This document shows positions 5,256-63,752 of a stretch of DNA of 64,000 bases, piece after piece. The translations under genes were made by a program, and so were the position numbers. Source of the stretch: Cephalotus follicularis (lineage: Eukaryota; Streptophyta; Magnoliopsida; Oxalidales; Cephalotaceae); NCBI GenBank assembly GCA_001972305.1, contig BDDD01001952.1, positions 54,806 through 118,805 on the forward strand, in the 5' to 3' direction. The notes under the pieces were generated by a model that was given only the letters and a program-made list of their open reading frames with translations, was not told the DNA's origin and did not search any database. Within the stretch, counting starts at the first letter, position 1. The number at the start of each line of letters is the position of its first letter.

Positions 5256-5323
5256 GTCGGCTGGCCCTATTGACAGTTGGCTGCCAAGCTTCGACAGTCA
5301 ACTGGAACTCTGTGACAGTCGGC
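5256..5323 (+). repeat. Four-copy GTCGAC-type array
   Basis: Cores at 5256 (GTCGGC), 5276 (GTTGGC), 5297 (GTCAAC) and 5318 (GTCGGC) are spaced 20, 21 and 21 bp. Spacer sequences differ from one another. Confidence 0.7.
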
Positions 5324-5901
5324 TGTTTTGCCCAGAAAATTTCTGTTTTCAACTATTTTGATCCGTTTGTTCTCCGAATCAATCCGGGTCTTTTCTAAAC
5401 ACTGTATTGAGTCTGTTTAATGTCTCTAATATTTCTTAGACCCTTATATCAATGGTTTTGGATGTCTTTTAGATTGTTGTGCTTCAAAGGGGAGTTTGAA
5501 TTAACAATCTATCCGTAAGTGCTTTTGTGAACGCATAAGGTACAAATGTCCTTCTTTCTTTGGCTATCTGGTTTTATCGAACTGAAATCAGTTTTGTTTT
5601 ATGTTATGTTCCTTCATTTTATGAATTGGATTATATTTCAGAAATGAAGTTGTTTTTTGAAATTTTATGAATTTAAATGTTCCTGACTTTATTTTTATGC
5701 TATGATACGTTACGATATGTTATGAAATGATCATCTCTTTATCACGAAAAATAAATGAGTTGATGTTTTGACTATGAAATGTATGTTATGATATCGTTAT
5801 GAACGACTTTCAAATATGTTGTGAAAGCATATCTATGTGTTTTTAATTGATTTTGATAAATCGATGTTTTCTAAATGATTGAATACTGAGTATTGTACCC
5901 A

Positions 5902-6121
5902 CCTATGGGGCGTACCATAGGCATGTCGTAGGCCTGGCACAGGGACATGACACTTCTGTAGCGATGTGATTAGTCTACGGCGTCTCTGAATGTTATGAAT
6001 AAATCCCATGAGGTGGATTTATGGATCCGCTATGTATGATAGAGGCGTATGAATCGATTCTAGTATATAGATATGTGATATGAAATGATATATGAGAATT
6101 GACTTGTGTAGTGCCATACAC
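5902..6121 (+). other. Conserved hairpin block in Gypsy-A-family LTR
   Basis: Stems in order: CCTATGG (5902-5908) with CCATAGG (5915-5921); CATGTC (5922-5927) with GACATG (5944-5949); ATAAATCC (5999-6006) with GGATTTAT (6015-6022); GTGTA (6106-6110) with TACAC (6117-6121), the last enclosed by AGAATTGA/TCAATTCT. The same series occurs in the Gypsy-A 5' LTR and, with altered bases, in Gypsy-C. Confidence 0.55.
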
Positions 6122-6379
6122 TTCAATTCTAATGGGCATGTGGAATTAGCGCCTCCCTTGCCAATCTATGTATGAAATGTGATATGTATGTGGCTCAGTA
6201 TAACTTATCAATCATGAAATGATATTTTTGAAATGTTTCATAAATGTTTCAAAAGATATGAAAATTGGTATTTTATGGAAACTCGAATATGATTAAACTG
6301 TTTTAATTGCTTAAGATTTCTGTTATGAATTTTATTGAAATCTTACTGCTTTTAAACTTATTGTTTACTTCTTTTTCTT

Positions 6380-6436
6380 TCCTTATTCGTACTGAGGTTT
6401 GCTCAGCCGCGTTTTGTTTTCCATGCGGTAGGTTAT
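6380..6436 (+). other. Conserved LTR block (fragment copy)
   Basis: Block reading 'gtactgaggtttgctcagc', then the GC-rich 'cgcg', a T-rich stretch and 'catgcgg.aggtt'. It occurs in all five Gypsy-A/C-type LTRs of this window about 300-390 bp before the LTR end. GCCGC can pair with GCGGC across it. Confidence 0.6.
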
Positions 6437-6742
6437 CAGGAGCAGCGAGGGAATGTGTGAATGAGAGTTGGCCACCTTATGTCATGGATCCCTAGGAGTG
6501 TGATCCTTATGTGTCTTTGATTTTTACTGGTCATGAACAATATGCTATTTAGTTTTATGTTTCGGTATTTGACTTTTGAAATATGTTAACTTTTAAGTTT
6601 TGAACAGTTTTTTTTTTCAGTTATGTTATGACCGCCACGTTTTGGCTAATAACGGAATGTTTATGTTTAGTTAAAGTTATGCCTATGTTCAGATATGTTT
6701 TGTTATGACCTGTGATGACTCCCGCCATCCGGGGATGTTACA

Positions 6743-7342
6743 CTTATCCTCTGTGTCAAATTAGTTCCAAGTCATAGATGCACTTACTGGGCATTTGTGA
6801 ACCGGATAGACTTGTTTGCACTTTACCTGCTCTCGGGAAGGGGAGGATGGAGAGTCTCACTACCATCTGTGGGGAACACTAATGCAAGTGCGAGCTGCGC
6901 GCTTGGAGCGTGTACACTGAACTGGACCCGCTTAAGAAACACTATTTGGATGGTCGTTATTCTCGTGTCAATAGTGATTCCAACATGTTGTAGTTATGTA
7001 TAAGTGTTGGACACTTAGCGAGTTCGTGGAGAACTCGTCTAATCCTTTAATTTGAACGATTATAGAGACTATCTTCCTTTGACTTCCAACTTACTCAATT
7101 CTATTTCGGGACTGACAATCGGGTGGTCTTTGGGCTTGATGGAATCTGTACAAATATAAGCAAATGTGCAATATGGAATCATCTCACTTGAGTGAAGGTG
7201 ATCGGCCCTAATTTGGTCTGATTATATTATGGGCTGATGAAATCTTTGGCCAAGGTTAAGGTGGATCTGAAATTGGATTTTCGGGGAGGTCTACCGAAAG
7301 CCCTAGTGATGATCAGATATTTTAGCCAGTAAAGTAATAATA
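6743..7342 (+). repeat. Copia-2 5' LTR, first part
   Basis: Closely matches 26609 to about 27210 of the 3' LTR ('attagttccaagtcatag', 'tgaactggac...cgctta', 'gactgacaatcgggtggtc', 'gatgatcagatatttta'). It is interrupted at 7342 by Gypsy-A; the last five bases (7338-7342, TAATA) are the left TSD. Confidence 0.85.
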
Positions 7343-7635
7343 TGTAATACCCTGCTCGTTCGTAAATATATTTTACGGATTTTATGTTTGTGTTCGGGCT
7401 TTTAATTGTGTTTAATTTTAAAGCCCGTTTGCCCTGTGTTTTGGGCTTATGTGATTTGGGCTGACTGATACCAGTCCAATTATGCCGAATTCTTCTTGTG
7501 GTGTCTGTGTAGCTGCTGTGTAAACGTATCATCAAGTTGTGGAGGTAATCTTAATCCTTTTTGTTGTTATTTTGAGTTGAATTCGTTTGGTTTGCTTAGT
7601 TTCTCCTTGTTTTGGTTTTCTCTTGGTTTTGTCTC

Positions 7636-7727
7636 TTTGTCCTCTGTTTTTGTTCACAGCCGGGTAACAATTGTTATTGTTTTTGTCCTCTGTTTTTGTT
7701 CACAGCCGGGTAACAATTTTTATTGTT
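7636..7727 (+). repeat. 46-bp tandem duplication in Gypsy-A 5' LTR
   Basis: Two near-identical 46-bp copies starting 'tttgtcctctgtttttgttc'. The 3' LTR has one copy, so the duplication came after insertion. Confidence 0.85.
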
Positions 7728-8164
7728 GTGTTTTCTGTGTCCTTAACATCACTACATGTTAGTTAAATTCGTTTCCCCAGTGATGATTTTGTTTCAATGA
7801 CATAATTTTGGTTTTATGCTCTTAATGTCACTTGGGTTCAATTCCTATGTTAATATGCCCTGCCATTGTGTTGTTAAGTCTGTTAACATGTGTAATGCAC
7901 CTAGATATGTCATAAACTGGATTTAAGTATCTATTAAATGATAAAGGATAGAATCTGGACACACATGTATGCATGCCTTCTTGTTTCCTCTTGGAAGCAA
8001 AGCCACTGTCAAATTGTTTATATGTCGTTTCTGTGTTTTTATGTCACCCAAAAGTCATACATGATCATATGTTTATGTCCATATGTCTCTGGTTTAATGT
8101 AAAAACCATTTGAACCATTTTCAGTAGTGAATTGTCGAATTTCCAACTGTTCTGTAGCGCAGAA

Positions 8165-8370
8165 CAGTCGGCTGTCTCTGTGGACAGTCGGCTGGAATGG
8201 ATGAGTAGCCAACTGCCATATGGATGCAGTCGACTACCTTAGGTTGAGTAGTCGACTGGATGTATGAACCAGTCGACTGCCTGCACTTTAGTTTGAGTAG
8301 TCGACTGGACATTATGAATAGTCGACTGTCTTGCTTCCCCAGTCGACTGGTGCCCTGTATTAGTCGACTG
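8165..8370 (+). repeat. Ten-copy CAGTCGACTG array, 21-bp phased
   Basis: Ten copies of a (C/T)AGTCGACTG-like palindrome start at 8165, 8185, 8206 (degenerate), 8227, 8249, 8270, 8298, 8319, 8340 and 8361. Steps are 20, 21, 21, 22, 21, 28, 21, 21 and 21 bp. The 10-bp motif is conserved while the roughly 11-bp spacers are not. The first two copies read CAGTCGGCTG. Confidence 0.9.
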
Positions 8371-8887
8371 TTTTGCCCAGAAATGTAATGTTTTCAACTG
8401 TTTTGATTCGTTTGTTCCTCGAATCGATCCGAGTCTTTTCCAAACACTGTTAAGAGTCTGTTTAATACTTATGATGTGTTTTAGACTCTTATACGTATGA
8501 TTTTGAATGTCTTTTTAGATTGATTGTGATTCAAGTGAAGTTTGGTTTAAGTCATCTATTCGTAAGTACTTTGTGAGCGCATAAGGTACAGATTTTCTGT
8601 TCCTTGGATATCTGACATTCGAACTGAAACAGTTTTGATATGCTTCTTTGTTTATGAAATCGATAATGTTTTATGGTTTTGATACATTACGAAATTAAAG
8701 TTGGTCTGACATTTTTAAATGATTCCGACTTTAAACATATGATATGAAATGATACGATATGTTATAAAATGTATGTTATGATACCGTTGTGAGCGGTTTC
8801 CGAATATGTTAAGTGAAAACATATTTTATGTGATTTTAAATTGATTTTGATAAATCAATATTTTTGAAATACTGAGTATTGTACGCA

Positions 8888-9146
8888 CCTATGGGGCGTA
8901 CCATAGGCACGTCGTAGGCCTGGCACGGGGACGTGACACTTCCGTAGCAGTGTGATTAGACTACGTCGTCTCTGAGTGTATGAATAAATCCCATGAGGTG
9001 GATTTATGGATCCGCTATGTATGATAGAGGCGTATGAATCGATTCTAGTTTATGTGATCTGAGGTGTGATCAGATATGTGATCCGAGGTGTGATCGGATA
9101 TGTGTACGTGAGAATTGACTTGTGTAGTGTCGCACACTTCAATTCT
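8888..9146 (+). other. Conserved hairpin block, Gypsy-A 5' LTR
   Basis: Stems: CCTATGG/CCATAGG (8888-8894, 8901-8907); CACGTC/GACGTG (8908-8913, 8930-8935); ATAAATCC/GGATTTAT (8984-8991, 9000-9007); twin hairpins ATCTGA/TCAGAT (9057-9062, 9070-9075) and ATCCGA/TCGGAT (9081-9086, 9094-9099); outer AGAATTGA/TCAATTCT (9111-9118, 9139-9146). The segment 8397-9047 is absent from the 3' LTR. Confidence 0.6.
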
Positions 9147-9380
9147 AGTGGGCATGTGGAATTAGCGCCTCCCTTGCCAAATTTATGATATGTGATATGT
9201 ATGTGACTCAGTATGATTTATGATTTAAGATTTGTGAATCGGAAATAATGTTTTGAAATGTTCTGTAATTGTTTCGAAAGATATGCAATTGTTACTTGAA
9301 TATGATTAAACTGTTTAAGATTTCTGTTATGAAGTTTATTGAAATATTATTGTTTCTAAATTATTGTTTACTGTTTTATT

Positions 9381-9440
9381 TCCCTTATCCGTACTGAGGT
9401 TTGCTCAGCCGCGTTTTTGTTTCCATGCGGCAGGTTTTCC
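9381..9440 (+). other. Conserved LTR block (Gypsy-A 5' LTR copy)
   Basis: Same 'tactgaggtttgctcagcc' block as in the other Gypsy-A/C LTRs, near the 3' end of the LTR. CTGAG and CTCAG can pair within it. Confidence 0.6.
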
Positions 9441-9776
9441 GGAGCAGCGGGGGAAAGTGTGATTGAGTGATGACCACCTTATGTCTTTGGTTCCCTAGGA
9501 GTGTGATCCTTGTGTTTTATGTTTAGTGGTCAAACTATGAAACTTATGTTTTATGTTTTTAAATTTGGAACTGGATTATGCTTTGAGTTTTTCGCAATTG
9601 CTTAATATGATTAATTCCTAAGTTTTAATGTTATGATAAGACTGCCACATTTTTGGCTGTTTTTGGTTAATAAATTAATGTTATGATTCGTTATGTAATG
9701 TTTATGCTCTGATAAGTAATGTTATGTATGATATGACCCTGTGATGACTCCCGTCGTCCGGGGGTGTTACAGATTT

Positions 9777-11484: not shown

Positions 11485-12608
11485 AAGTTATATCTGCTCT
11501 GAAGGCTAGGAAGTTGGTAGCTAAGGGCGCTGAAGGTTTCTTAGCTGTTGTAAAGGATGTCTCAAAGGTTGAGCCTCGCCTTGAAGGCTATCCTATGGTC
11601 AGAGAATTTTCTGATGTGTTTCTGGAGGAGTTACTGGGTTTGCCACCGCAACGGGAAGTGGAGTTTACATTCGAACTCATTCCCGGACCGGCACCTATAT
11701 CTAAGGCACCTTACAGAAGGGCACCGTTAGAACTGCAAGAGTTGAAGGAATAGTTGCAAGAGCTGTTGGATCGGGGTTTCATTCAGCCTAGTGTTTCGCC
11801 ATGGGATGCTCTGGTTCTTTTTGTGAAGAAGAAAGATGGGTCTATGAGGTTATGCATAGACTACAGAGAGTTGAACCGAATCACTGTTCGGAATAAATAC
11901 CCGCTACCTAGGATTGATGACTTGTTTGATCAACTCCAAGGAGCTCGGTATTTCTCGAAGATCGATTTGAGATCGGGATATCATCAGCATTGGATAAAGG
12001 ATGGAGATGTGCCTAAAACTGCTTTCCGTACTCGGTATGGGCATTATGAGTTTTCGGTGATGCCTTTCGGACTCACTAATGCACCGGCCGTTTTCATGGA
12101 TTTGTTGAATAGGGTGTTCCATGAGTACTTGGATCAGTTTGTTATTGTGTTCATAGATGACATTCTCGTGTATTCCAAGTCAAAGGAAGAGCATGAAGAA
12201 CAGCTTCGCATTGTGTTGAGTATTCTGAGGAAGAATCAGCTTTACGCGAAGTTCTCGAAGCGTGAGTTTTGGTTGGAACAGGTGGCGTTTTTAGGTCATG
12301 TGGTTACAACTGAAGGTATCTGTGTGGATCCTGCTAAAGTTGAGGCTATTATTAAATGGCCGAGACCTACCACGGTGACGGAGGTTAGGAGCTTCTTGGG
12401 TTTGGCTGGATATTATAGGTGGTTTGTGGAAGGCTTTTCCTCTATAGCCTTACCACTAACTCAACTTATGAGAAAAGGAGCTAAGTTTGAGTGGAATGAG
12501 GAGCGAGAAGCAAGCTTTGAGAAACTGAAGAATGGTCTTGTGTCAGCACCAATTCTTAGTTTACCATCTGGGTCGGGTGGATACCAGATATACAGCGATG
12601 CTTCTAAG
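11481..12608 (+). pseudogene. Gypsy-A reverse transcriptase, cut by assembly gap
   Basis: Ty3/Gypsy RT in a different frame from gag. Blocks: [30 protein letters not shown], a TAG stop at 11751-11753 where Gypsy-C has Gln, then [56 protein letters not shown] and the catalytic FIDDILVYS with both Asp intact. The thumb/connection region ([14 protein letters not shown]) continues to the beginning of RNase H (YSDASK), where 55 N begin. After the gap the sequence resumes deep in integrase. The single stop is a C-to-T change. Confidence 0.88.
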
Positions 12609-12663
12609 NNNNNNNNNNNNNNNNNNNNNNNNNNNNNNNNNNNNNNNNNNNNNNNNNNNNNNN
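12609..12663. other. Assembly gap (55 N)
   Basis: The flanks correspond to Gypsy-C positions 36705 and 37852, which are 1,146 bp apart. Most of RNase H, the integrase zinc finger and most of the DDE core are therefore missing here, and the gap length is not true to size. Confidence 0.95.
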
Positions 12664-13930: not shown

Positions 13931-13938
13931 ATATGTTA
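13931..13938 (+). promoter_or_regulatory. Candidate TATA box of the Gypsy-A LTR
   Basis: TTTATATG within 'gccgtttatatgttacc'. The reverse solo LTR at 22735-23738 carries the equivalent 'gccattttatatgttgcc', so the box is conserved between copies. It lies about 480 bp from the LTR start, upstream of the 21-bp array. Confidence 0.5.
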
Positions 13939-14599: not shown

Positions 14600-14805
14600 C
14601 AGTCGGCTGTCTCTGTGGACAGTCGGCTGGAATGGATGAGTAGTCGACTGCCATATGAATGCAGTCGACTGCCTTAGGTTGAGTAGTCGACTGGATGTAT
14701 GAACCAGTCGACTGCCTGCACTTTAGTTTGAGTAGTCGATTGGACATTATGAATAGTCGACTGTCTTGCTTCCCCAGTCGACTGGTGCCCTGTATTAGTC
14801 GACTG
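14600..14805 (+). repeat. Ten-copy CAGTCGACTG array (3' LTR copy)
   Basis: Copies start at 14600, 14620, 14641, 14662, 14684, 14705, 14733, 14754, 14775 and 14796, with the same step pattern as the 5' LTR array (20, 21, 21, 22, 21, 28, 21, 21, 21). Confidence 0.9.
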
Positions 14806-15173: not shown

Positions 15174-15230
15174 TCCCTTATCCGTACTGAGGTTTGCTCA
15201 GCCGCGTTTTTGTTTCCATGCGGCAGGTTT
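15174..15230 (+). other. Conserved LTR block (Gypsy-A 3' LTR copy)
   Basis: Same 'gtactgaggtttgctcagcc' block near the LTR end as at 9381-9440. Confidence 0.6.
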
Positions 15231-38761: not shown

Positions 38762-38899
38762 GCCGACGCTCTCATTAGAACCGCCGACGCTTTGGCTGTT
38801 GTGTGACACGCTGACGCCTAAACGTGTGACTTCGACGCCTTTTGTATTTCAGTGCTTAACCGTCGACGCTTTAAGTAAACAGTCGACGCTTTAGTCGGC
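38762..38899 (+). repeat. GTCGAC/GCCGAC array 1 of the Gypsy-C LTR
   Basis: Cores at 38762, 38783, 38810, 38831, 38862 and 38882: steps 21, 27, 21, 31 and 20, in other words pairs about 21 bp apart. The flank consensus is AAGCG-core-GCTT. An extra GTCGGC lies at 38894. Confidence 0.8.
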
Positions 38900-39651: not shown

Positions 39652-39780
39652 GTCGACGCTTAGTATTTGAGCGTCGCCGCATTGTACTGTTTTGTGCTTT
39701 GGTCAGTCAACTCCTCGCTCGACGCTTTGTCCTTTTGTGCAACTAAACCATCGACGCCTAAGAACAAACTGTCGACGCTT
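39652..39780 (+). repeat. GTCGAC array 2 of the Gypsy-C LTR
   Basis: Cores at 39652 and 39673 (21 bp), 39718 (CTCGAC), 39750 and 39771 (21 bp). Confidence 0.7.
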
Positions 39781-42248: not shown

Positions 42249-42424
42249 AAAGTGTCGATGCTTTAGGTGAGAGTCGATCTCCTAATTTTGAACGTCGACG
42301 CGTTGAAGTTATATGTGTCAGCTGACTCAAAGCGTCGACGCTTTAGGTGAGAGTCGATCTCCTAATTTTGAACGTCGACGCGTTGAAGTTATATGTGTCA
42401 GCTGACTCAAAGCGTCGACGCTTT
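42249..42424. repeat. 80-bp tandem duplication carrying GTCGAC motifs
   Basis: Two 80-bp copies (42249-42328, 42329-42408) plus a partial third. Copies differ by C-to-T at two CpG sites in the first motif. Cores at 42254, 42273, 42294, 42334, 42353, 42374, 42414 and 42435. Confidence 0.9.
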
Positions 42425-42486
42425 GTGATAAAGCGTCAGCGCTTTAGTCGGGATAGAGGTGAAAAAGTCAGGTAAAACCCTTAAGC

Positions 42487-42513
42487 GCCGACGCTTAGAA
42501 GGAAACGGTCGAC
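42487..42513. repeat. GCCGAC/GTCGAC pair in solo LTR E
   Basis: Cores at 42487 and 42508, 21 bp apart, each flanked by AAG/CGCTT-type sequence. Confidence 0.75.
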
Positions 42514-43105
42514 GCTTTAAGCTGCAGACAAAGGTAAATATGTTTTGTTATGTAATAAGAATAATGTTTTTCCGCTGTAATAAGTGTTTATGTACAATAG
42601 TGATCCTGTGTAATGTAGACCTATAATATGGTTATGACATCTTTTTATAAGATGACTATGTGTAAAGATGAATTGAAGATTATGTACGATTTTACAAAGA
42701 CGTGAATTTATGATGTTATGTACTTTTAGAAAAGAGTACCTAAGGAGGTAACGTTTCACACCCAACGTAACGCAACCGATCTTTGGAGTTAGCTTTGAGC
42801 TATTAGCGAGCTCGGGTTGGGGTCGTTACAAGTTATATGTTACATGCGTACAAGTACAACACAAGTTATATGCTACATATCTGAAATGTAAATATTACAT
42901 AACGGAGTATGATTATTACAATTTAACATTAACAACCTTAAAACAAGAATCTCTCCAGAGTACAGCTTTAACAACAAGTCTCCACAAAACCTTCACTTCA
43001 ATTTGAAATAGTAGATATTAGTCATTATCTTCACTTGGCTAAGTAGGAAATATGCATGACAATGAATATAAAGATGCAATCATGCATGAAGTTTTATCAT
43101 TTTAA

Positions 43106-43110
<5 letters not shown>

Positions 43111-43142
<32 letters not shown>
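43111..43142. repeat. (TA)16 microsatellite
   Basis: Sixteen TA units in the Gypsy-B 3' LTR; the equivalent site in the 5' LTR (about 50381-50403) has a shorter interrupted run. Confidence 0.95.
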
Positions 43143-43144
<2 letters not shown>

Positions 43145-43927
43145 AATTCATGCCAAGTGGCTACAATAATTCACGTATCAACCACACCACTCAAGGGTAC
43201 AAACAATCAATCACTTGTCCGAAGACCACGCACGGGCATCAACCATTGCTAACCCATAGCCCACAGGAGCTACCCAACTATCACCCCAACGCCGCTGATG
43301 ATAGGAGGTAAACACGACTGCCGGCACTTGGTGGGCAGTTAACACGCATGCTCTGCAATGCATATAATTTGGGTGAATAAGCAAGAGCCAACTCCTGGCC
43401 CATCGGCTCACCGCCGTAGTTTAGTGCTACACTCTGATCACGAGACTATCAGCATCACTCAATCACAATCAATTCACGAATATCACATATATGTAATATA
43501 ATAAGTTCTCTTTTTGACAAAACAGTAGAACTTCACTAGTTTCATTTAATAAAACAATAGCCACTTCACTAGTTCTCACTTGGAGAACTCAATACAATAA
43601 CGCTAGGTCTTCTTTCAATTTATAGTTGAAAGCATTTGATAGTTGAAATCCTTGACACAATGACATTTGTAAAACACTTTGATTGATAAAAATATCAATA
43701 ATAGTAACAATAGCAATATATACATGATGGCATAACAATATACATTTCAAGGATTACAACAATGAACAATCACAATACAATCACTCGCGTATATGAATCA
43801 AACAGAAGGTGTAACAGTCATTCAATCACTACAATATGTATTACATCCGGTAGAGAATGGTTATGGAAATCATCCCTAGGGAAGCCAGTGTAGTTTCATG
43901 AGTAAATCGCAGAATAGGTCCTTAAGC

Positions 43928-44081
43928 GTCGACAACCCTGACTTTAGCGTCGCCGCTTATCTCCAAAGCGTTGACAGTGTGAGCTAAGCATCGACAGTTT
44001 CGTGTCTCTAGCGCCAAAACGTTCACTTAAAGCGTCGATATACAAGTCTTAAACGTCGACGGTACCATTTTAAGTGTCGGC
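43928..44081. repeat. Array 1 of Gypsy-B 3' LTR, 21-bp phased
   Basis: Cores at 43928, 43949, 43970, 43990, 44013 (degenerate), 44034, 44055 and 44076: steps 21, 21, 20, 23, 21, 21 and 21. Confidence 0.85.
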
Positions 44082-44952
44082 GCTTTATAGCGTAAACACA
44101 ATACCAATAGCGGCAACAAAACAGATCATGCAAATTCATATACCAAACCACTCCAATTAAGCATGAAATCAAATAGAAATTATCCAGACATAATATACAT
44201 ACTATATGTTCAAGATCATGTCAAAATTCCTACCACAAATCGCTTATCCCGGAATCAATTTGGGATTGATTCCTCTCTTTATGTTCCAACACACCTCAAC
44301 TCAATTTCAATCCTTAAATCCAGAATTGAATCTATATGGCATGAACACAGTAGATATAGGAACGAAATCAGCATGTATAACTAACTGATTACTAAGATAA
44401 CATCACTAAGATCAAAACAGAAGCTTACCATTCCACTGGAAGCTTCAATTTCTTCTATGAACACTCCTTGTTCCACATGCAAGATTCCCAGCTACTGTCA
44501 AATACGTTCTCTCCTCTCTCAAGGGTTTTCTACCACTCATTTCTATCACTCAGTAGCTGATTTAAATGGATAATTCGTACCAGTGATTCGTGAATTAGTC
44601 TAACTCAGATTGTTGGAATTTCTCTTCACTCTCTCTCACTATTGTGTTCTCTCATTTGTTTTATTCCTCTTCTGTTTTGCAGGTGGTAGTAGTGCAAGTC
44701 ACATGCAAGACTCTGCTCTCAGCTCTTCAACAGTTGGTGATACGAATTGATGTGTTGTAGACACGTTTAAGACACCTGCCTTGCAAGGAAACATTTAGCG
44801 TCATAGCTCTGTTCCATCCAACACGTATCAGATACCTTGCACGGCTCAAAGTGTCACCGGTTTCTCCCTGGGCGTTCTCGCTTAAGCCACCGCTTTTCCA
44901 AGCCACGTACGCTATTACATGTTTCCAATTAACACGTATTTAACTTCAAAGC

Positions 44953-45020
44953 GTCGACGGTGTACCCAATGCGTCGACGGTTAAGCCCAAAGCGCTGAAG
45001 CTTTGGTTTTGAGCGTTGTC
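44953..45020. repeat. Array 2 of Gypsy-B 3' LTR
   Basis: Cores at 44953, 44973, 44994 and 45015: steps 20, 21 and 21. Weaker units at 44853 and 44874 are also 21 bp apart. Confidence 0.8.
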
Positions 45021-45192
45021 GGTTGGCGCCAAAATTCAATTTTCAAAGTTTCTTTAATTGAACCATTCCACTCTTGCAATTTAGTCCAATTCTTTTCAAT
45101 TAAGTCATAAAACACTCAGTAACCATAATGTACATAACAATTGGACAATTAATCTCAATCAGATGCCTATTATTCATCAATTTATACATTAA

Positions 45193-45996
45193 TTAAAATT
45201 TGCGGTTATTACATTCCCCCCTCTTTATAGAAAATTCATCCCCAAATTTAACTTTATATTCCGAACAAGTGAGGATCATCTCGGCTTCACGTTCCCATGT
45301 AGCTTCCTCAGCTCCGTGAAATCGCCACAATACCTTTACCATAGGAATAGTCTTGTTCCTCAGCACTTTTTCCTTCTGATCAATAATCCGCACTGTCCGT
45401 TCTTCATAGGATAAGTTATCACTGATGAATCCGGGGTCATAATTCAATATATAAGATGGGTCAGGTACGTATTTCCGTAGCATGGAAACATGGAATACGT
45501 TAGGCACATTCAATAAGTTGGGCAGCAGTGCAATCTGATATGCCACTTCCCCAATTCTCTCCAGTATCTCATAAGGTCCAATGTACCGTAGAGATAATTT
45601 CCCTTTCAGGCCAAATCGGTGCACTCCCTTCGAAGGCGAGATCCTCAGAAAAACATGATCTCCCTTCTCGAACTCTAGTTTTCTCCTCTTCACATCGGCA
45701 TAACTCTTTTGCCTACTCTGTGCAGTGGGTAGCTTCTTCTTGATTATCTCCACTTTATCAGTAGTCTCTTGCACAAGATCTGATCCCAGCACCTGTCTTT
45801 CACCCACCTCATCCCTGCAAATAGGAGATCTACACTTCCTACCATACAAGGCTTCATAGGGAGCCATCCCGATGCTGGCATGATAGTTGTTGCTGTAAGA
45901 GAATTCAAACAGTGAAAGATGATCCTCCCAACTCCCAGTGAATTCAATAACACAAGCCCCAGAGCATATCTTCAAGATTCTGAATGGTACTCTCAA
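45193..45996 (-). pseudogene. Gypsy-B integrase C-terminal half, frameshifted
   Basis: A different frame from the upstream pol, so a small indel separates it from the DDE core. Reads FTGSWEDHLSLFEFSYSNNYHASIGMAPYEALYG, the GPY/F module GLKGKLSLRYIGPYEILERIG, FHVSMLRKYVPDPS and the chromodomain-like tail VRIIDQKEKVLRNKTIP, VKVLWRFHGAEEATWE. The first residues precede the conserved start and are accidental. The C-terminal residues run through the PPT into the LTR. Confidence 0.85.
45214..45229 (-). other. Polypurine tract of Gypsy-B
   Basis: Minus strand AAAGAGGGGGGAA, followed by the LTR start TGTAATAACCGC. Confidence 0.85.
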
Positions 45997-49961: not shown

Positions 49962-51214
49962 TGTTGTCACACCCCGCTTTCCATTAACAAGATATATATG
50001 GCTATCAGATAATAATCCAGCATTCAACAATAATCCAAAACAATCAAAACTTTAAAACTTGCGGAAGCATTCATATACCGGATTATTTAAGTCTCCACAT
50101 GTAGCCCATACTACATGCATACAAGTACAACACAAGTTATATGTTACATATCTGAAATGTAAATATAACATAACGGAGTACGATTATTACAATTAAACAT
50201 TAACAACCTTAAAACAAGAAGCTCTCCAGAGTACAGCTTCAGCAACAGGTCTCCATAAAACCTTCACTTCAATCTGAAATAGCAGGTATTAGCCGTTGTC
50301 CTCACTTGGCCAAGTAGGAAATATGCATGACAATGAATATAAAGATGCAATCATGCATGACATTTTATCATTTCAAAACAATTTATATATATATAACAAT
50401 ATATAAGAATTCATGCCCAGTGGCTACAATCATTCACATATCTGATGGAATCAGAATAACCAATTCCAATGCCATAAATGGACTAAGGTGCAAAGGCTGT
50501 AGAACAAAGATTTATACAACAAAATATGCAGGGGAAGAACACCACACAAAAGCAAAAACAGTCCATTATAGCTTGACCATAGGCCACATGGATCACCACA
50601 TGAACACAAGAGTTGAATTGGTGTCACCATAGCAAGTAATGGTGACCCACAAACATGGGAACTAGAGAGGGAGACAAGGAGATATACCTACGGGTGTTGG
50701 CTCCTTCGTCTTTGCCGCTACTAGCTTGCGAAGACTCGTTCTTTACTGCCCTCCAAAAACGTTCAGCTACTGCTCCCAACAGATGCACACCAGAAGGAAG
50801 AAACAAAACAGTTTCCTTATGCATTCTCTCTTTCTCTCTCAAAACTTATAAAAGGGAAAATTGTGTTTGATTAATGTAATAAAAAACAATCTGCCCTAGA
50901 TAAGTAACTTGATTGGTGTTTGTAGTTGAAGGAAAACTCTAAGTGCAGAGGGAATACTCATCTCGTTTCGCCCAGCAAAAACCAACCACAAAAACTGAAA
51001 CATATATTCTACACAAATAGCTTCTCACCAGCCCACATTCCCTCTCTCCCACTCTCCCACAAACATGGGATCATGGTCCTCAATCCCAGGGAGTCTGTAG
51101 CCATGTTCCCCACGTTTCCATAACGTGCATTGATGGGAGAAAACTGATGGAGATGTGAGAGAAAACGTGCCCACGAAGTGAGATCGTGCACAAGCTGCAC
51201 AACCCGCTCTAAGC

Positions 51215-51383
51215 GTCGACGCTTTCAACAATAGCGTCGACGCTTATGGATTACATGGCACTAAACGTCGACATGTTTCTAAAATTCATCAACGTTATAC
51301 AAGCCTTAAGCATCGACACTTCCCAAAATGCGTCGACGCTTTGTCTAAAGGAATGCACCGACGCTTTCCCAGAAGGCGTCGAC
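51215..51383. repeat. GTCGAC array of Copia-3 3' LTR
   Basis: Cores at 51215, 51236, 51267, 51288 (degenerate), 51312, 51332, 51357 and 51378: steps 21, 31, 21, 24, 20, 25 and 21. Full motif AAGCGTCGACGCTT at 51211-51224. Confidence 0.88.
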
Positions 51384-51394
51384 GCTTTGACTGG

Positions 51395-51403
51395 TATATA
51401 AAG
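51395..51403 (-). promoter_or_regulatory. Candidate TATA box, Copia-3 3' LTR
   Basis: Plus strand TATATAAAG (minus CTTTATATA), about 1,272 bp from the LTR start. The first array core lies about 17 bp further along the minus strand. Confidence 0.55.
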
Positions 51404-52674
51404 CATTTTGAGTATAAGTCCAACTTATTTAATTCCTTTTAATATTGATTAATTAAGATCAAACAAATGTGTTTCCACAAAATGCCAAATCCACATAACC
51501 GATATTTGACACCAAGACTTAATATGTCCAACATATTAAAGAACTAATCATTATTGGGCAGGGACACTATAAAATATTGGTTAAAACCGGAGGTGTTCAT
51601 AAATTACAAAAATACTCCTAGGGTTCGGTTTAGCCATTCTAAATGGTCCTAGACCAATTTAAATGCTCTCGGAATAATATCTAATATTATCCAGATGGAA
51701 AAATTAATCTAATTAATATTTTTATAATTTATTACACACCTCATTAACCCTAGATTTTCTAAGTTGTCGGTTCACGTGTACTATAATCCCTTGTCATACT
51801 TGGCCCCGATTGAGGTCTGGGGTAAGGATATGTGTCAACCCTGGATAATACCTCAATGGCTAAAATATCTGATCATTACTGGGACCTTTGGCAAACTCCC
51901 CGGAAATCTAATTTCCAGTCTACCTCAACCTTGGCCAAGGATTTCATAAGTCCAAAGTATAATCAGATCATAATAGAGTCGATCCCCTTCGCTCAGGTGT
52001 GACAATCCCATATTGCACACTCACTTATATTCGTATAGATTTGATCATACCCAAAGACCACCCGATTGCCAGCCTTGCGTAAGGACTGGGTAAGGTGGAG
52101 ATCAAAGCATAACCGTCTTCATAGAACATAGAGCAGTCACTCAGGTCTAAGGATCAGACGAGTTTGAGAACTCGCTAAGTGATCATCACTTATACACAAC
52201 CGCAACAAGTAGGAGTCACTACTGACATGAGAATAGCGACTATCCAAACAGTGTCTCCTATACGGGTCTTGTTCAGTGTACACGCTCCCAGCACGCACCC
52301 CGTATTTTCCCTAGTGTCCAACACAGATCGTAGTGAGAGAATCCATCCTCCAATTCCATGAGCAAGCAACATGCACGCAACTCTATCCGGTTCACTAATG
52401 CCCACAAAGTGAACCTATGACTTGGAACTAATTTGACATAAGGAATAAGGTAACCAATCTCACTGCCTCCATGCTACGCATCCAACCTTATGTCAGGGCA
52501 TCATAAGTATAAGCAGGTAAATAATAAACTATTCCAATGAAGTGATAAAACACAAGTGATATAGCCATAACAAAATTAGCACACATCATATATACAAGGA
52601 ATAAGATTGCTCATACAAGATAAGATATAATATGACAACCCATCTAATGGCTTATCGGGTCACTATATCTAACA

Positions 52675-52685: not shown

Positions 52686-52687
52686 GA

Positions 52688-53496: not shown

Positions 53497-53508
53497 CTTG
53501 CTGATGTA

Positions 53509-56492: not shown

Positions 56493-56741
56493 CTAAAGCT
56501 CATGTGTCATCCCGAGAAGGGCAAGACATCTAGCCTGCTCGTCATCCTCTAGCCACTTGGCTAGTCGCTCACTCTCTTCGGGCGTCGGATATTCACCCAG
56601 CGAAGGAGGCCCCCCAGTCATCACATAGGCCATTTTATTTGCCGTAAGGACGATCTTGAGGTTACGGTACCAATCGTTGAAGTTGGGCCCCTCAAGTTTG
56701 TTTGTCTCAATTATACGGGACATTGCATTTGATAAAGCCAT
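56493..56741 (-). CDS. Copia-3 gag N-terminal part
   Basis: Begins at MALSNAMSRI, with a start supported by the parallel Copia-2 sequence. Contains ETNKLEGPNFNDWYRNLKIVL, the Copia gag N-terminal (UBN2-like) signature, MTGGPPSLGEYPTPEESERL and WLEDDEQARCLALLGMTHEL. A stop then interrupts the frame (probably CAG to TAG), which continues below with the same reading. The upstream leader is 1,688 bp. Confidence 0.85.
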   Translation of the reverse strand: MALSNAMSRIIETNKLEGPNFNDWYRNLKIVLTANKMAYVMTGGPPSLGEYPTPEESERLAKWLEDDEQARCLALLGMTHEL

Positions 56742-56934
56742 AGTAGCAACCTAGATAAGGAAATATAAACATGAGTTAGCATTTATTCCAATTTTAATAT
56801 ATGACAACCATAACACTTGGTCTTTAGTGTTTATGGTTCCTCATACTATTCTAATCGTATCCCATACCCCCATATGGAACTCGAGAAGTCTAACTTCCTA
56901 GTGGGGATTGGAATCCATTACAATCATATTATAG

Positions 56935-57236
56935 TCTCAGCTAGGGCATGACAAACTATAATATATCCAATGGGTAGCCTTTCTTGCAAATTTGTATCCA
57001 ATACAAGATACAATCATAGTATTCGGCCTTAGATTCAATATGGCCTCAGCTAGGGCATGACAAACCATTAGAATCTTGATAAGTCAAGTACCCACAATTT
57101 TCATTGGAATGCACTAATTTTAATACCCACACGTAGGTGTGTCCAAGTGCTAAAACATAGCCACCCTTTGCGGTGCCCAACACCGACGTTGACATAATAT
57201 CCCCAAGTTATCAGCCTCAGCTAGGGCATGACAAAC
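56935..57236 (-). repeat. Three-copy leader motif of Copia-3
   Basis: Minus-strand 'ggtttgtcatgccctagct' copies at 57214-57236, 57043-57065 and 56935-56955, about 171 and 108 bp apart, as in Copia-2. Confidence 0.8.
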
Positions 57237-58048
57237 CAACATTCTAGGAACACTACTCAACGAAAATTGTGGAAGGCCACGGGGAACCACTCCATGGGTT
57301 CTTATGTTAAGACTTATTATTAAAGTGAGGGAATTTGCGGTCTCAAGTTTTAATTACCGAGCCATTAATTAATTCATTGGTTGTATTAGCCAATTCCAAT
57401 TAATTACGGCTTAACATGCAAGACGTGTATCTTATGCACCTTGGGCATATTTCTAAAATATGTCAATGGATTGGCAAGGACATTATTAGTAGTGACTTGA
57501 GCCCAAAATCACTACTAGGTCTTCCTAGGTGTTTATATATAAAATTTATCTATTACAACAAATACCATGCATACATGGCCTTCAAAAGTCTTGTACTCCA
57601 TTTCTCCTTTCATCCATCTTTCCTTGCAAGGTCTTCTTTTACAAAAAGAACTTTACATTTTCGAAAGAAAAATTACATTTTAAAAATTACAAGGAAAAAT
57701 TACAAAAGCAATGAAAAATAAATAGTGCACGCAGGCACCTAATTACAAACCTTTAAAATAATAAATAAATAACAATCATCCACACATAGAAAACCATAAA
57801 CTATGTCAATGTCCTTTTTCGGGCCATCCATTGTGTATAAGATTTATATTATACCCAATATAATAAAACCACAAAATAACACATGCTATAAATAATAACT
57901 AATCATAAAATGTAATTTAAGGATTGTCAATATTGATTAAACTCCCACTAAATCAAGCAATGATTTTGATTTTCTAAGTGCCACAATGTAAAAAAAAAAT
58001 TCCAATTTTATCAAAAACAGAAATTTTTTTTTTAATTAATGCTAAAGC

Positions 58049-58106
58049 GTCGACGCTAAGACAAGGCGTCGATGCATATAGTGAAAACAGTTGAACAAGC
58101 GTCAAC
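58049..58106. repeat. GTCGAC cluster in the Copia-3 leader
   Basis: AAAGCGTCGACGCT (core 58049), GTCGAT (58068) and GTCAAC (58101), near the PBS end of the leader. Confidence 0.65.
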
Positions 58107-58416
58107 GCTTTAACCCCCTGGGCAGTTTCTGTAATTCAAAAATTGCAAAAACTTGGTTTTGAACATTAGGCAATTCAATTCCAGTCATTTCCAGACAAAT
58201 TACAGCCATATTCTACACCATGTAGGTTTCCAAAACATGTTCAAAACTCAATTTAACATAATCTCCAAGATTAATTATCAATGAAATCCAACTTCATAAA
58301 CTAGTTCATTAAGGCACTTTGAATATCAAGTCTAACCCAAACAACACATCCTTTCAATTAAACCTTCAATCAGTACATCATTCATAGCAAAAATTCAACT
58401 AAGGACGATGTGGGAC

Positions 58417-58428
58417 GCTCTGATACCA
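58417..58428 (-). other. Primer-binding site of Copia-3
   Basis: Minus strand TGGTATCAGAGC, an exact initiator-Met tRNA complement, 1 base from the LTR. Confidence 0.92.
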
Positions 58429-59200
58429 CTGATGGAATCGGAATAACCAATTCCAATGCCATAAATGGACTAAGGTGCAAAGGGTGTAGAACAAAAATTT
58501 ATAAAACAAAATATGCAGCGGAAGAACACCCAACAAAAGCAAAAACAGTCCATTATGGCTTGACCATAGGCCACATGGATCACCAAATCAACACAAGAGT
58601 TGAATCGGTGTCACCATAGCAAGTAATGGTGACACACAAACATGGGAACTAGAGAGGGAGACAAGGAGATATACCTGCGGGTGTTGGCTCCTTCGACTTT
58701 ACCGCTACTAGCTTGCGAAGACTCGTTCTTTACTTCCCTCCAAAAACGTTCAGCTACTGCTCCCAGCAGATGCACAACAGAGGAAAGAAACAAAACAGTT
58801 TCCTTATGCACTCTTTCTTTCTCTCTCAAAACTTATAAAAGGGAAAATTGAGTTTGATTAATGTAATAAAAAAAATCTACCCTAGATAAGTAACTTGATT
58901 GGTGTTTGTAGTTGAAGGAAAACTCTAAGTGCAGAGGGAATACTCATCTCGTTTTGCCCAGCAAAAACCAACCCCAAAAACTGAAACATATATTCTGCAC
59001 AAATAGCTTCTCACCAGCCCACATTCCCTCTCTCCCACTCTCCCACAAACATGGGATCATGGTCCTCACTCCCAGGGAGTCTGTAGCCATGTTCCCCACG
59101 TTTCCATAACATGCATTGATGGGAGAAAACTGCTAGAGATGTGAGAGAAAACGTGTCCACGAAGTGAGATCGTGCACAGGCTGCAAAACTCGCGATAAGC

Positions 59201-59344
59201 GTCGACGCTTTCAACAATAGCGTCGACGCTTATGGATTACATGGCACTAAACGTCGACGTCTTTCTAAAAGTCATCAACGCTATACAAGCCTTAAGCGTC
59301 GACGCTTCCCAGAATGCGTCTACGCTTTCCCAGAAGGCGTCGAC
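59201..59344. repeat. GTCGAC array of Copia-3 5' LTR
   Basis: Cores at 59201, 59222, 59253, 59274, 59298, 59318 and 59339: steps 21, 31, 21, 24, 20 and 21. One unit fewer than the 3' LTR. Confidence 0.88.
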
Positions 59345-59355
59345 GCTTTGACTGG

Positions 59356-59364
59356 TATATAAAG
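59356..59364 (-). promoter_or_regulatory. Candidate TATA box, Copia-3 5' LTR
   Basis: TATATAAAG on the plus strand, the same position as in the 3' LTR. This copy would drive the element's transcript. Confidence 0.55.
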
Positions 59365-61388
59365 CATTTTAAGTATAAGTCCAACTTATTTAATTCCTTC
59401 TAATATTGATTAAGTAAGATCAAAAAAATGTGTTTCCACAAAATGCAAAATCCACATAACCGATATTTGACACCAAGATTTAATATGTCCAACATATTAA
59501 GAACTAATCATTATTGGGCAGGGACCCTATAAAATCATGGTTAAAATCGGAGGTGTTCATATATTACCGAAATACCCCTATGGTTCGGTTTAGCCCTTCT
59601 AAATGGACGTAGACCAATTTAAATGCTCTCAGAATAATATCTAATATTATCCAGATGAAAAAATAAATCTAATTAATTTTTCCATAATTTATTACACACC
59701 TCATTAACCCTAGATTTTCTAAGTTATCGGTTCATGTGTACTATAATCCCTTGTCATACTTGGCCCCGATTGAGGTCTAGGGTAAGGATATGTGTCAAGC
59801 CTGGATAATAACTCAATGGCTAAAATATCTGATCATTACTAGGACCTTTGGAAAACTCTCCAGAAATCTAATTTCCAGTCTACCTCAACCTTGGCCAAGG
59901 ATTTCATAAGTCCAAAGTATAATCAGATCATAAAAGAGCCGATCACCTTCGCCCAGGTGTGACAATCCCATATTGCGCACTCACTTATATTCGTATAGAT
60001 TCGATCATAACCAAAGACCACCCGATTGCCAGCCCTGCGTAAGGACTGGGTAAGGTAGAGATCAAAGCATAACCGTCTTCATACAATATAGAGCAGTCGC
60101 TCAGGTCTAAGGACCAGACGAGTTTGAGAACTCGCTAAGTGATCATCACTTATACACAACCGCAACAAGTAGGAGTCACTACTGACACGAGAATAGCGAT
60201 TATCCAAACAGTGTCTCCTATACGGGTCTTGTTCAGCGTACACGCTTCCAGCGCGCACCCCGTATTTTCCCTAGTGTCCAACACAGATCGTAGTGAGAGA
60301 ATCCATCCTCCAATTCCATGAGCAGGCAACATACGCGCAAGTCTATCCGGTTCACTAATGCCCACAAAGTGAACCTATGACTTGGAACTAATTCGACATA
60401 AGGAATAAGGTAACCAATCTCACAGCCTCCATGCTAGGCATCCAACCTTATGTCAGGGCATCACAATTTTAAGCAAGTAAATAATAAACTACTCCAATTG
60501 AGCAATAAAACACAAGTGATATAGCCATAACAAAATTAGCACACATCATATATACAAGGAATAAGATTGTTCATACAAGATAAGATATAATATGACAACC
60601 CATCTAATGGCTTGTTGGGTCACTATATCTAACAGTATCAACCATACCTCTCAAGGATACAAACAATCAATCACTTGTCCGAAGACAACGCATGAGCATC
60701 AACCGTCGCTAACCCCTAGCCCACGGGAGCCACCCAGCTATCACCCCAACACCGCTGATGATAGGAGGTAAACACGATTGTCGGCACTTGGCGGGCAGTT
60801 AACACGCACGATCTGCAATACAGATGATTTGGGTGAATAAGCAAGAGCCAACTCCTGGCCCATCGGCTCACCGTCGTAGTCTAGTGATACACTCCGATCA
60901 CGAGACTATCAGCATCACTCAATCACAATCAATTCACGAATATAACATATATGTAATATAATAAGTTCTCTTTTTGAGAAAACAATAGAACTTCACTAGT
61001 TTCATTTAAGAAAACAATAACCACTTTATTAGTTCTCCCTTGGAGAACTCAATACCTTAATGCTTGGTCTTCTTTCAATTTATAATTGAAAGCATTTGAT
61101 AATTGAAATCCTTGAAATAGTGACATTTGTAAAACACTTTGACTGATAAAAATATCAGTAACAGTAACAATAGCAATATATACACGATTGCATAACAATA
61201 TACATTTCAAGGATTACAACAACGAACAATCACAATACAATCACTCGCATATATGAATCAAACATAAGGTGTAACAGTCATTCAATCCCTAAAATCTATA
61301 TTACATCCGGCAGAAAATGATTATGGAAATCATCCCTAGGGAAGCCAGTGTAGTTTCATGAGTAAATCACAAAACAGGGTCCTTAAGC

Positions 61389-61564
61389 ATCGACAGCCAC
61401 GACTTAAGCGTCACCGCTTATCTCCAAAGCATCGACAGTGTGAACTAAGAATCGAGAGTTTCGTGTCTCCAGTGCCAAAACGTTTCACATAGAGCGTCGA
61501 TATACAAGTCTTAAATGTTGACATTTACGCATTAAGCGTCGACGGTACCATTCTAAGCGTAGGT
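61389..61564. repeat. Array 1 of Gypsy-B 5' LTR
   Basis: Nine cores at 61389, 61410, 61431, 61451, 61474, 61496, 61517, 61538 and 61559: steps 21, 21, 20, 23, 22, 21, 21 and 21. Exactly one 21-bp unit more than the 3' LTR array. Confidence 0.85.
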
Positions 61565-62334
61565 GCTTCATAGCGTAAACCCAATACCAGTAGCAGGAAC
61601 CAAACAAAGCATGCAAATTCATATACCAAACCACTCCAATTCAGCATGCAATCAAATAGCAAATATATTGACATAATATAAATACTATATGTTCATGATC
61701 ATGTCAAAGTTCCTACCTCAAATCGCTTATCCCGGAATCAATTTGGGATTGATTCGTCTCTTTATGTTCCAACACACCTCAACTCAATTTCAATCCTTAA
61801 ATCCAGAATTGAATCTATATGGCATGAACACAGTAGATACAGGAACGAAATCAGCATGTATAACTAACTGATTACTAAGATAACATCACTGAGATCAAAA
61901 TAGTAGCTTACCATTCCACTTGAAGCTTCAATTTCTTCTATGAACACTCCTTGTTCCACATGCAAGATTCCCAGCTACTGTCTAGTACGTTCTCTCCTCT
62001 CTCAAGGGTTTTCTAACACTCATTTCTATCACTCAGCAGCTGATTTAAATGGATAATTCCTACCAGTGATTCATCAATTAGTCTAACTTAGATTGTTGGC
62101 ATTTCTCTTGACTCCATCTCACTACTGTGTTCACTAATTTGTTTTATTCCTCTTCTGTTTTGCAGGTGGTAGCAGTGCAGGTCACATGCAAGACTATGCT
62201 CTCAGCTCTTCAACAGTTGGTGATATGAATTGATGTGTTTTAGACATGTTTAAGACACCTGACTTGCAAGGAAACATTTAGTGCCACAACTATGTTCCAT
62301 CCAACATGTATCCCATACCTAGCACCGCTCAAAG

Positions 62335-62503
62335 CGTCGCCGGTTTCTCCCTGGGTGTCATCGCTTAAGCCACCGCTTTGCCAATCCACGTACGCTATTA
62401 CATCTTTCCAATTGACATGTATTTAACTTTAAAGCGTCGACAGTGTACCCAAGGCATCGACGGTTAAGCACAAAGCGCTGAAGCTTTGGTTTTGGGCGTT
62501 GTC
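62335..62503. repeat. Array 2 of Gypsy-B 5' LTR
   Basis: Cores at 62436, 62456, 62477 and 62498 (20, 21, 21), with weaker cores at 62335 and 62357. Confidence 0.78.
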
Positions 62504-62845
62504 GGTTGGCGCCAAAATTCAGTTTTCAATGTTTCTTTAATTCAACCTTTCAACCATTGCAATTTAGTCCAATTCTTTTCAATCAAGTCATCAAACACTC
62601 AGTAACCACAATGTACATAACAATTGGACATTTAATCTCAATTAGATGCATATTTTATTCCTTAATTTATACAATATATATTAATTGAAATTTGCGGTTT
62701 TTACATTTATACTCATCCTTATATTATCTATTTATGCATACACATTCTATTTCTATTCGGGTATGTTTAAGCTAAGTTTCAATGAGTAGGGTTGCTGTTA
62801 TTGTGACCACAAGACTTGAGTCAATTGTGGCCACATATTGTGCTT

Positions 62846-62852
62846 TATAAAG
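62846..62852 (+). promoter_or_regulatory. Candidate TATA box of Gypsy-D LTR
   Basis: TATAAAG, about 220 bp into the LTR once Gypsy-B is removed. Confidence 0.55.
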
Positions 62853-63412
62853 TGCCCTACATTTAACAAATATTGCACATCTCTGATTCTCTATTCTCTC
62901 ACCTGTATGTCTCTTGTCTCTCTCCCATTTCTTCACCAAATATCATACACAACATAACTTATCTATCTCGTTGCTCTCGCCTATCCAAGACAGCAACAAA
63001 AGGGGAAGATTGATCATTTATTACATCAAGAACGCCATCCTTGAAGCTTGAAAGCATTGGAGAGCATTAGACTTGAGTCTAAGCTCCTATTTCTGATAGA
63101 TCCATCAACAAACAAGCTTCAAAAGCATTTGGTAGATATTCTCTACCTAAAATGCTTAATATTATGCATATATAAAATGTATTGATTGACTAAATTGATT
63201 TATTGATATTGGAGTTTTTTAGGGGTTTGGGGAATTTTGACCTAGAAATTTATCTAGGGTTAAAACCAATGAATCAAATTGATAAACACTGATTTATGGA
63301 ACCTAAATAAGCTTTACAAACCTTTGATTTTAAAGGAAATTGATTTAACAAAGAATTGGATTGAGAAATAGCGCTTTGACATAACTAGACTATGTTTCTA
63401 TTCTATCTAAGC

Positions 63413-63752
63413 GCCGACACCTTGCCCATAGGCGTCGCCGCTTAGAACAGTTTCTATTGTATACAAGGCACAGCTCGACTTAAGCGCTGGCGTTTTATTT
63501 AAAGGTGTCGCAGCTTAAGGTACTCCACATTAAATGTTTTTAGACTGCTCGACCTAAGAGCTTACTCATGTAGTTGAAGCGTCACTGCTTAAGCTAGTTT
63601 CTTCCCAGTTTTAACCGACGATGCTAAGCACTGAGCAATGATGTTTGGCTAAGCACTGAAGCTTAAGCCAAGGCGTCGCCGTTTAGTGTCTATTTTTATA
63701 AAATCAAAGATACTGGACTGTTAAGCACTGACGCTTTGTCCGAGGCGTCTTC
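63413..63752 (+). repeat. Paired GTCGAC-like motifs in Gypsy-D LTR
   Basis: Pairs of cores 20-21 bp apart: 63413/63434, 63486/63507, 63655/63675 and 63727/63747. Individual cores are degenerate (GCCGAC, GTCGCC, GCTGGC, GTCGCA, ACTGAC). The pairing distance is preserved better than the motif. Confidence 0.7.

Follow-up and report, generated by a model that had tools for sequence, protein, structure and literature searches.

We identify phased arrays of a palindrome centred on GTCGAC in the long terminal repeats (LTRs) of unrelated Gypsy and Copia retrotransposons of Cephalotus follicularis. The arrays lie in 64,000 nucleotides of contig BDDD01001952.1 (assembly GCA_001972305.1, positions 54,806 to 118,805, forward strand), here called the window, whose annotated elements are nested LTR retrotransposons. 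Two homotypic palindromes recur in LTRs of both superfamilies, CAG(T/C)CGACTG (class I) and AAAGCGTCGACGCTTT (class II). The motif is in excess, phased and rare in coding DNA, its spacers are unlike, and in the elements examined it is located in LTRs. From these sequence features, we propose that the arrays are probably multimerised cis-regulatory binding sites for a protein of two-fold symmetry. Symmetry, scarcity of sites nearer than 18 bp, a helical step, coding rarity and unlike spacers are all explained together by protein-DNA binding; under any one of the alternatives of RNA kissing loops, phased small interfering RNAs (siRNAs) and a plain minisatellite, some of them would go unexplained.

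Results

Excess and phasing of GTCGAC

The window holds 45 exact GTCGAC hexamers against 5.5 expected from the dinucleotide content of its 64 kb. Twenty other 10-kb stretches of the genome, picked by place and not at random (16 contigs, with three stretches each on C1 and C2 and one each on 14 others), hold 112 against 15.9 expected, a 7.0-fold excess, and among the 64 palindromic hexamers GTCGAC ranks top in these stretches, with GACGTC next at 3.6-fold. Across the window and the 20 stretches (264 kb), the 157 copies compare with 21.0 on average and at most 33 in 60 dinucleotide shuffles, and 31 exact pairs lie 20-22 bp apart, a spacing found for no pair in any of the 60 shuffles. The hexamer excess and the shuffles together rule out chance or composition as the source of the arrays. 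TATATA and ATATAT also form 19 and 18 pairs at 20-22 bp, yet their pairs at 6-66 bp number 264 and 284, and they therefore show little preference for this step. An initial sequence-only reading of the window had claimed non-random GTCGAC arrays in Gypsy and Copia LTRs and had named a 21-bp peak over shuffled controls as the check; the arrays and the peak are both borne out. Extrapolation from the non-randomly chosen places puts the genome at roughly 0.9 million GTCGAC cores.

The same step dominates the host genome at large (1.577 Gb searched, one genome covered). Exact pairs number 105,145 at a 21-bp step, 41,498 at 20 bp and 218,599 when all steps of 6-36 bp are pooled, against 1,224, 391 and 3,942 for a reversed-pattern control, so that the 21-bp step accounts for 48% of exact pairs at 6-36 bp. 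Genome-wide pair listings were drawn from the first contigs, and the first 100 steps listed come wholly from contig C1: 12-13 bp occurs 3 times, 19 bp 5, 20 bp 20, 21 bp 49, 22 bp 8, 23 bp once, 27-28 bp 10 and 30-33 bp 4 times, with 82 of the 100 at 19-22 bp.

Partners with up to three mismatches were tallied per anchor, such that pairs of exact cores count twice, after omission of the 54 of 170 exact cores that fall outside both classes. Class I anchors have no partner at 8-18 bp, 2, 12, 48 and 7 at 19, 20, 21 and 22 bp, none at 23-24, 14 at 25-28, 1 at 29-39 and 40 at 40-43 bp. Class II anchors have 1 partner at 8-18 bp, and 9, 18, 26 and 0 at 19, 20, 21 and 22 bp. A spacing of two helical turns is thus preferred, and palindromes nearer than 18 bp are seldom seen. 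Chains of at least three phased units number 59, the longest of 10 units, against 11 in the reversed sequence, the longest of 4; 49 of the 59 comprise 3-4 units.

Four further loci (L001 to L004) were chosen for carrying AAGCGTCGACGCTT and lean to class II. L001, L002 and L004 enter the mismatch-partner, coding, half-independence, half-class, clustering, chain and slot tallies; L003, which overlaps L002, enters the coding tally only. The hexamer ranking uses the place-chosen stretches, to which the shuffle test adds the window. Cores near locus ends are omitted from the mismatch-partner, half-independence and half-class tallies, and 30-mers with at most 6 differences were collapsed for the half-independence, half-class (170 to 144 cores) and inner-letter tallies. 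Coding DNA of transposable elements (TEs), defined by similarity to TE proteins of the window, holds 5 GTCGAC cores in 48 kb, against 170 in the remaining 228 kb.

Two palindrome classes and their tolerated changes

Each palindrome sets a half-site opposite its own mirror copy, (A/C/G)(C/T)AGTC in class I and (A/T)AAGCGTC in class II, and like halves pair: 83 non-redundant array cores comprise 29 of I-I type, 29 of II-II type, 4 of I-II type and 21 with at least one atypical half; the full set of 144 non-redundant cores has 57 of the last kind. Inside either class the left flank is uncorrelated with the right, a comparison in which the class-defining letters are weak evidence. Halves that share a class yet vary independently are what two identical contacts about a two-fold axis would leave, and a symmetric DNA-binding protein, in line with the dimeric protein raised in the sequence-only reading, is the simplest explanation.

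Class I slots lying 19-22 bp from an exact core, with their outer letters kept, read TCGA in 16 of 34 cases, CCGA or TCGG in 13, TCAA or TTGA in 2 and otherwise in 3, and the CpG is therefore kept in 29 of 34. Half of the class II flank-anchored slots (7/14) are exact, and the consensus RYCGAC, which GTCGAC itself satisfies, fits 2 of the 7 variants. In a mismatch-based tally RYCGAC fits 18 of 24 class I phased variants, 16 of which are GCCGAC.

Spacers and growth of the arrays

After masking of the palindromes, the 38 arrays compared separate into 31 groups whose spacers have no detectable similarity between groups at E < 1e-3, in a comparison of short pieces that may miss distant homology; two arrays of one LTR may count as two groups, and the 31 groups are not 31 TE families. 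Of the five multi-member groups, two each consist of an LTR pair, one joins both Copia-3 arrays to two arrays from the sample, and the remaining two are further pairs. An unmasked clustering into 5 groups was discarded, as the motif itself produces matches. Spacer likeness does not differ significantly from column shuffles in class I (23 clusters, p 0.064) or class II (22 clusters, p 0.132). A CACAGGG/CCCTGTG theme is visible by eye in class I spacers, with CAGGG in 3 of 23 cluster representatives. Unlike spacers occur together with 82 of 100 listed steps at 19-22 bp, which argues that spacer length is held, since free drift would not keep it.

Tandem Repeats Finder reports a 21-bp unit at 59296-59349 (88% matches), a 25-bp unit at 51327-51376 (76%), an 80-bp unit at 42249-42424 (97%) and, in Gypsy-A, a weak periodicity of 20-21 bp (69-78%), and the two Copia-3 LTRs differ in their array units. 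The 80-bp unit contains two GTCGAC palindromes with a GTCAGCTGAC palindrome in between. We infer that arrays grow by local duplication, after which spacers drift while site and spacing are held. The earlier claim of unconserved spacers thus stands between most arrays, where similarity is not detectable, and gives way inside single arrays with tandem units of 20-21, 25 and 80 bp; shared spacers between the Copia and Gypsy arrays, named in advance as the sign of one recent origin, did not appear among the 38 masked arrays as far as the comparison was run.

Arrays and their carriers in the window

The carriers and arrays are as follows, with LTR borders set for a few elements only; array positions are given without strand.

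7343..9772, forward strand: Gypsy-A 5' LTR, TGTAATACCC...GTTACA; pieces match 13449-15565 at 92.6-98.6% identity
13449..15565, forward strand: Gypsy-A 3' LTR, identified by LTR pairing
8165..8370: Gypsy-A 5' array, class I; 10 phased units, 7 exact; steps 20, 21, 21, 22, 21, 28, 21, 21, 21
14600..14805: Gypsy-A 3' array, class I; 10 units, 7 exact; steps as in the 5' LTR
5255..5330: class I-like array, all cores inexact; GTCGGC, GTTGGC, GTCAAC, GTCGGC about 20-21 bp apart
38862..38887: first array of the Gypsy-D 3' LTR, at +229/+249; the LTR starts near 38633
39652..39776: second array of the Gypsy-D LTR; exact cores at +1019 and +1138
42249..42513: class II array, made up in part of an 80-bp tandem unit
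42841..45215, reverse strand: Gypsy-C LTR, lower copy; the second copy is split by Copia-3 (50112-50442 and 60635-62707)
44953..44999: first Gypsy-C array; three units, exact cores at +235/+255 from the LTR start
43928..44081: second Gypsy-C array; seven units, 2 exact; steps 21, 21, 20, 44, 21, 21
61538..61543: exact core of the split Gypsy-C LTR; a further exact core at 62436
50443..52674, reverse strand: Copia-3 LTR, TGTTAGATATAG...TTCCATCA; 93.6% like 58429-60634
58429..60634, reverse strand: Copia-3 LTR, second copy; 93.6% like 50443-52674
51215..51383: Copia-3 class II array; seven units, 5 exact; steps 21, 31, 45, 20, 25, 21
59201..59344: Copia-3 class II array of the second LTR; seven units, 5 exact; steps 21, 31, 21, 24, 20, 21

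Pfam assigns RVT_1 and a chromodomain to Gypsy-D, Ty3-type capsid, RNase H and integrase domains to Gypsy-C, gag and protease to Gypsy-A, and an RVT_2 reverse transcriptase to Copia-3, between its LTRs. The first exact core of Gypsy-A lies near +886 from the LTR start, and the LTR fragment at 5255-6743, which holds the array without an exact core, is 73.5% like Gypsy-A. Copia-3 arrays sit about 1.3 kb into the LTR, and their 20-21 bp runs resemble those of Gypsy-C.

The two kinds of flank described from the sequence hold, CA..TG in Gypsy-A and mostly AAGC..GCTT in Gypsy-C, Gypsy-D, Copia-3 and the 42-kb array. The layout described alongside them, continuous runs in some elements and pairs in others, fits Gypsy-A (10 units with one step of 28 bp) and needs amending elsewhere: in Copia-3 and Gypsy-C, runs are mostly of 2-4 units at 20-21 bp, spaced 24-45 bp apart, and Gypsy-D and the 42-kb array are less regular. 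A weaker case in Copia-2 is not borne out: the exact core at 25032 looks coding and resembles the one at L024:5695, inside Copia coding sequence. The span first assigned to the arrays, 5256 to 63752, shrinks at both ends, with exact cores ending at 62436 and only mismatched phased units near 5256.

LTR-like starts (TGTAATA, then A, C or T, then C) occur 23 times in the window and sample, and 11 are followed by cores within 2.6 kb. Four of these 11 (Gypsy-C, Gypsy-D, L004 and L022) have two arrays, at about +182 to +255 and +1019 to +1332. L022 is of class I and the other three are mostly of class II, which suggests that similar places can take either palindrome.

Discussion

We propose that a dimeric sequence-specific DNA-binding protein would bind each palindrome, with adjacent dimers on one helix face, two turns apart, favouring joint binding or recruitment of a cofactor. 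The likeliest role would be transcriptional activation of the element, and unrelated Gypsy and Copia families would have acquired or retained the same solution. Short local tandem duplications, presumably as a general route, would enlarge the arrays, with spacers drifting and palindromes and spacing held. We favour activation over protection from silencing because clusters of host-factor sites in plant LTRs are reported to activate (ONSEN, PMC5059998; Rider, PMC6762207).

Palindromic LTR arrays, including one with a GTCGAC core, are already known from Sireviruses, and the initial remark that no description of this array was known needs qualifying: clusters of palindromic repeated motifs (RM boxes) in Sirevirus LTRs were published in 2010, and the Vitis motif CGGTCGACCG contains GTCGAC (PMC2829016). 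RM boxes number at least 8 and up to 32 per element and begin 200-400 bp past the LTR start, shortly upstream of a conserved TATA box; of those in 3'LTRs, 92% fall in the upper half. They yield stress-factor sites in PLACE, and none is said to occur in the other retrotransposons examined alongside; most elements have a different box, and all except Tnd-1 show a CGG-CCG signature (PMC2829016). Both palindromes described here are likewise dyad-symmetric boxes repeated in LTRs. Unlike RM boxes, they are centred on GTC-GAC with CAG or AAAGC flanks and lack the CGG-CCG signature, a CGG or CCG half being restricted to variants, of which CAGTCGGCTG is an example; the same two box types recur over many arrays; and the carriers extend beyond Sireviruses to Gypsy elements, among them Gypsy-D with its RVT_1 and chromodomain. 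Copia-3 has one polypurine-tract-like sequence beside the LTR within the 1 kb inspected, and so is not clearly a Sirevirus. For comparison of copy number and position, Gypsy-A has 10 units from near +886, and the first arrays of Gypsy-C, Gypsy-D, L004 and L022 lie at +182 to +255. The available text of the Sirevirus description gives no 21-bp or other spacing rule (PMC2829016). As far as its accessible text goes, this literature mentions neither a 21-bp phase nor two palindrome classes, nor arrays common to Gypsy and Copia elements; an incomplete search by title and start of abstract found no description of such an array.

Bousios (2016) reportedly describes palindromes in maize Sirevirus LTRs. 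The SV40 and HTLV-1 promoters repeat activator sites at 21 bp, with few units and with factors and sequence unrelated to those of the arrays here. The Gypsy elements of the window presumably belong to the Del lineage. ONSEN and other heat-responsive Copia LTRs resemble the present case in that clustered host-factor sites were gained in different LTR families, and differ in that their sites are heat-shock-factor nGAAn motifs in short clusters (PMC5059998). Del-lineage Gypsy LTRs have variable 5' CpG islands, which are not reported in the eudicots studied there (PMC4029996). Public viral contigs gave no match to a class I or class II pair, a result that is uninformative about plants.

A DREB/CBF-type AP2 protein is a candidate binder that we regard as a lead only, rather unlikely on present sequence evidence and weak for class II. 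RYCGAC is the barley C-repeat (CRT) element CBFHV (PMC4482647), an association of DREB1D sites with plant LTRs is on record, and maize Gypsy and Copia elements activated by stress are said to hold DREB/CBF motifs (PMC11656987). The LTRs of MCIRE (PMC5059998) and Rider (PMC6762207) have CBF/DREB-type sites (dehydration-responsive element, DRE/CRT), as for the candidate here, and the accessible text of these reports describes no palindromic phased array in them. Class II variants mostly misfit RYCGAC and some sites lie closer than 18 bp, which lowers the odds for DREB and for the symmetric-protein reading alike.

Several observations weigh against the proposed binding by a symmetric protein or against the DREB candidate. 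AP2/DREB proteins bind as monomers, which would not explain a symmetry of 10-16 bp. RYCGAC fits only 14 of 30 class II variants in the mismatch-based tally, 9 of them ATCGAC. The second inner base is altered in 6,761 phased class I slots genome-wide, an absolute count given without the corresponding CCGA number; TTGA makes up 40 and CTGA 32 of 100 such slots listed, and CpG loss is therefore not rare. The spacing is also less strict than its main peak. A second mode at 27-28 bp covers 10 of the 100 pairs listed, with spacers unlike by eye, class II runs are separated by 24-25, 31-33 and 44-47 bp, and no multiple of the helical turn matches the steps of 24-28, 31-33 and 44-47 bp; 3 of the 100 exact pairs listed are only 12-13 bp apart. 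The two-turn spacing originally advanced thus holds for the 20-22 bp peak and not for these other steps. The control motif CAGCTG favours 21 bp as well (1,224 of 3,942 pairs at 6-36 bp), perhaps partly because CAGCTGACTG, a common phased class I variant (32 of 100 listed), belongs to the same class I arrays. The 21-bp peak was computed per motif class rather than per genome-wide Copia or Gypsy set, and the Copia evidence consists of Copia-3 and a few sample arrays. Class I spacer likeness (p 0.064) is close to significance, and the U3 location of the arrays is presumed, one TATA-like box lying just upstream of the Copia-3 array.

That box lends something to a role in RNA, in which the palindromes, placed in leader or R-U5 RNA, would serve as kissing contacts for dimerisation or packaging, much as retroviral dimer initiation sites are palindromic hexamers. 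Why sites in RNA should be spaced by helical turns is not obvious, however, up to 10 copies would be unneeded, and arrays about 200 bp past the LTR start more probably lie in U3; we consider this account very improbable. Hardly more credit goes to a plain minisatellite, in which slippage made the 21-bp units and conservation is merely apparent: the local tandem units and the class I spacer value are what it would predict, but inter-array spacer likeness is slight while palindromes and spacing persist across Gypsy and Copia LTRs. We disfavour it because the whole unit, spacer included, is not conserved between arrays, local tandem units excepted.

A better, if still improbable, alternative is an anti-silencing array, at which a TE-encoded or co-opted protein would remove or block LTR DNA methylation as VANC does for VANDAL elements. 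VANC21 works through a short motif, dense in the non-coding DNA of TEs and multiplied there by tandem repeats (PMC5735166), and the GTCGAC arrays are likewise non-coding, CpG-containing and locally duplicated. The VANC motifs, however, have one orientation, a TE-encoded binder and are rare beyond one TE family (PMC5735166), in contrast to palindromes spread over two superfamilies. Least probable of all, to a degree that we all but discount, is a periodicity arising from phased 21-nt siRNAs or a silencing hot spot; palindromic motifs of maize Sirevirus LTRs are small-RNA hot spots (PMC5311732), yet phased siRNAs require neither a palindrome nor a conserved core, and a 21-nt register would not survive the steps of 20, 22 and 27-28 bp.

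The sequence itself provides two short probes and a spacing rule that bear on what drives transcription of unrelated retrotransposons in large plant genomes. If one factor binds, a host regulator would be linked to very many LTR sites, and the Sirevirus palindrome story would extend to Gypsy elements with a physical layout rule. We entertain, as a doubtful but conceivable extension of the symmetric-protein reading, that the LTR retrotransposons of this plant have largely converged on two helically phased palindromic ports for one dimeric protein or two paralogous ones. If true, one factor, of the host or domesticated, would switch retrotransposon transcription or de-silencing across the whole genome.

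Other observations on the elements

Gypsy proteins match mostly Tanacetum (Asteraceae) at 47-77% identity, with a full-coverage best of 76% (120 listed of 8,000 scored), and Copia proteins match scattered plants at 52-73% (120 listed); no near relative of the host is apparent among the proteins listed for the Gypsy integrase or Copia. A run of N interrupts the Gypsy-A pol frame (11754-12716), and the whole window has 55 N. Copia-3 sits in a Gypsy-C LTR (50442-60634) between ATATC and GTATC, the two copies of a 5-bp target duplication that differ at one base; the other Gypsy-C LTR copy reads GTATC near 43175.

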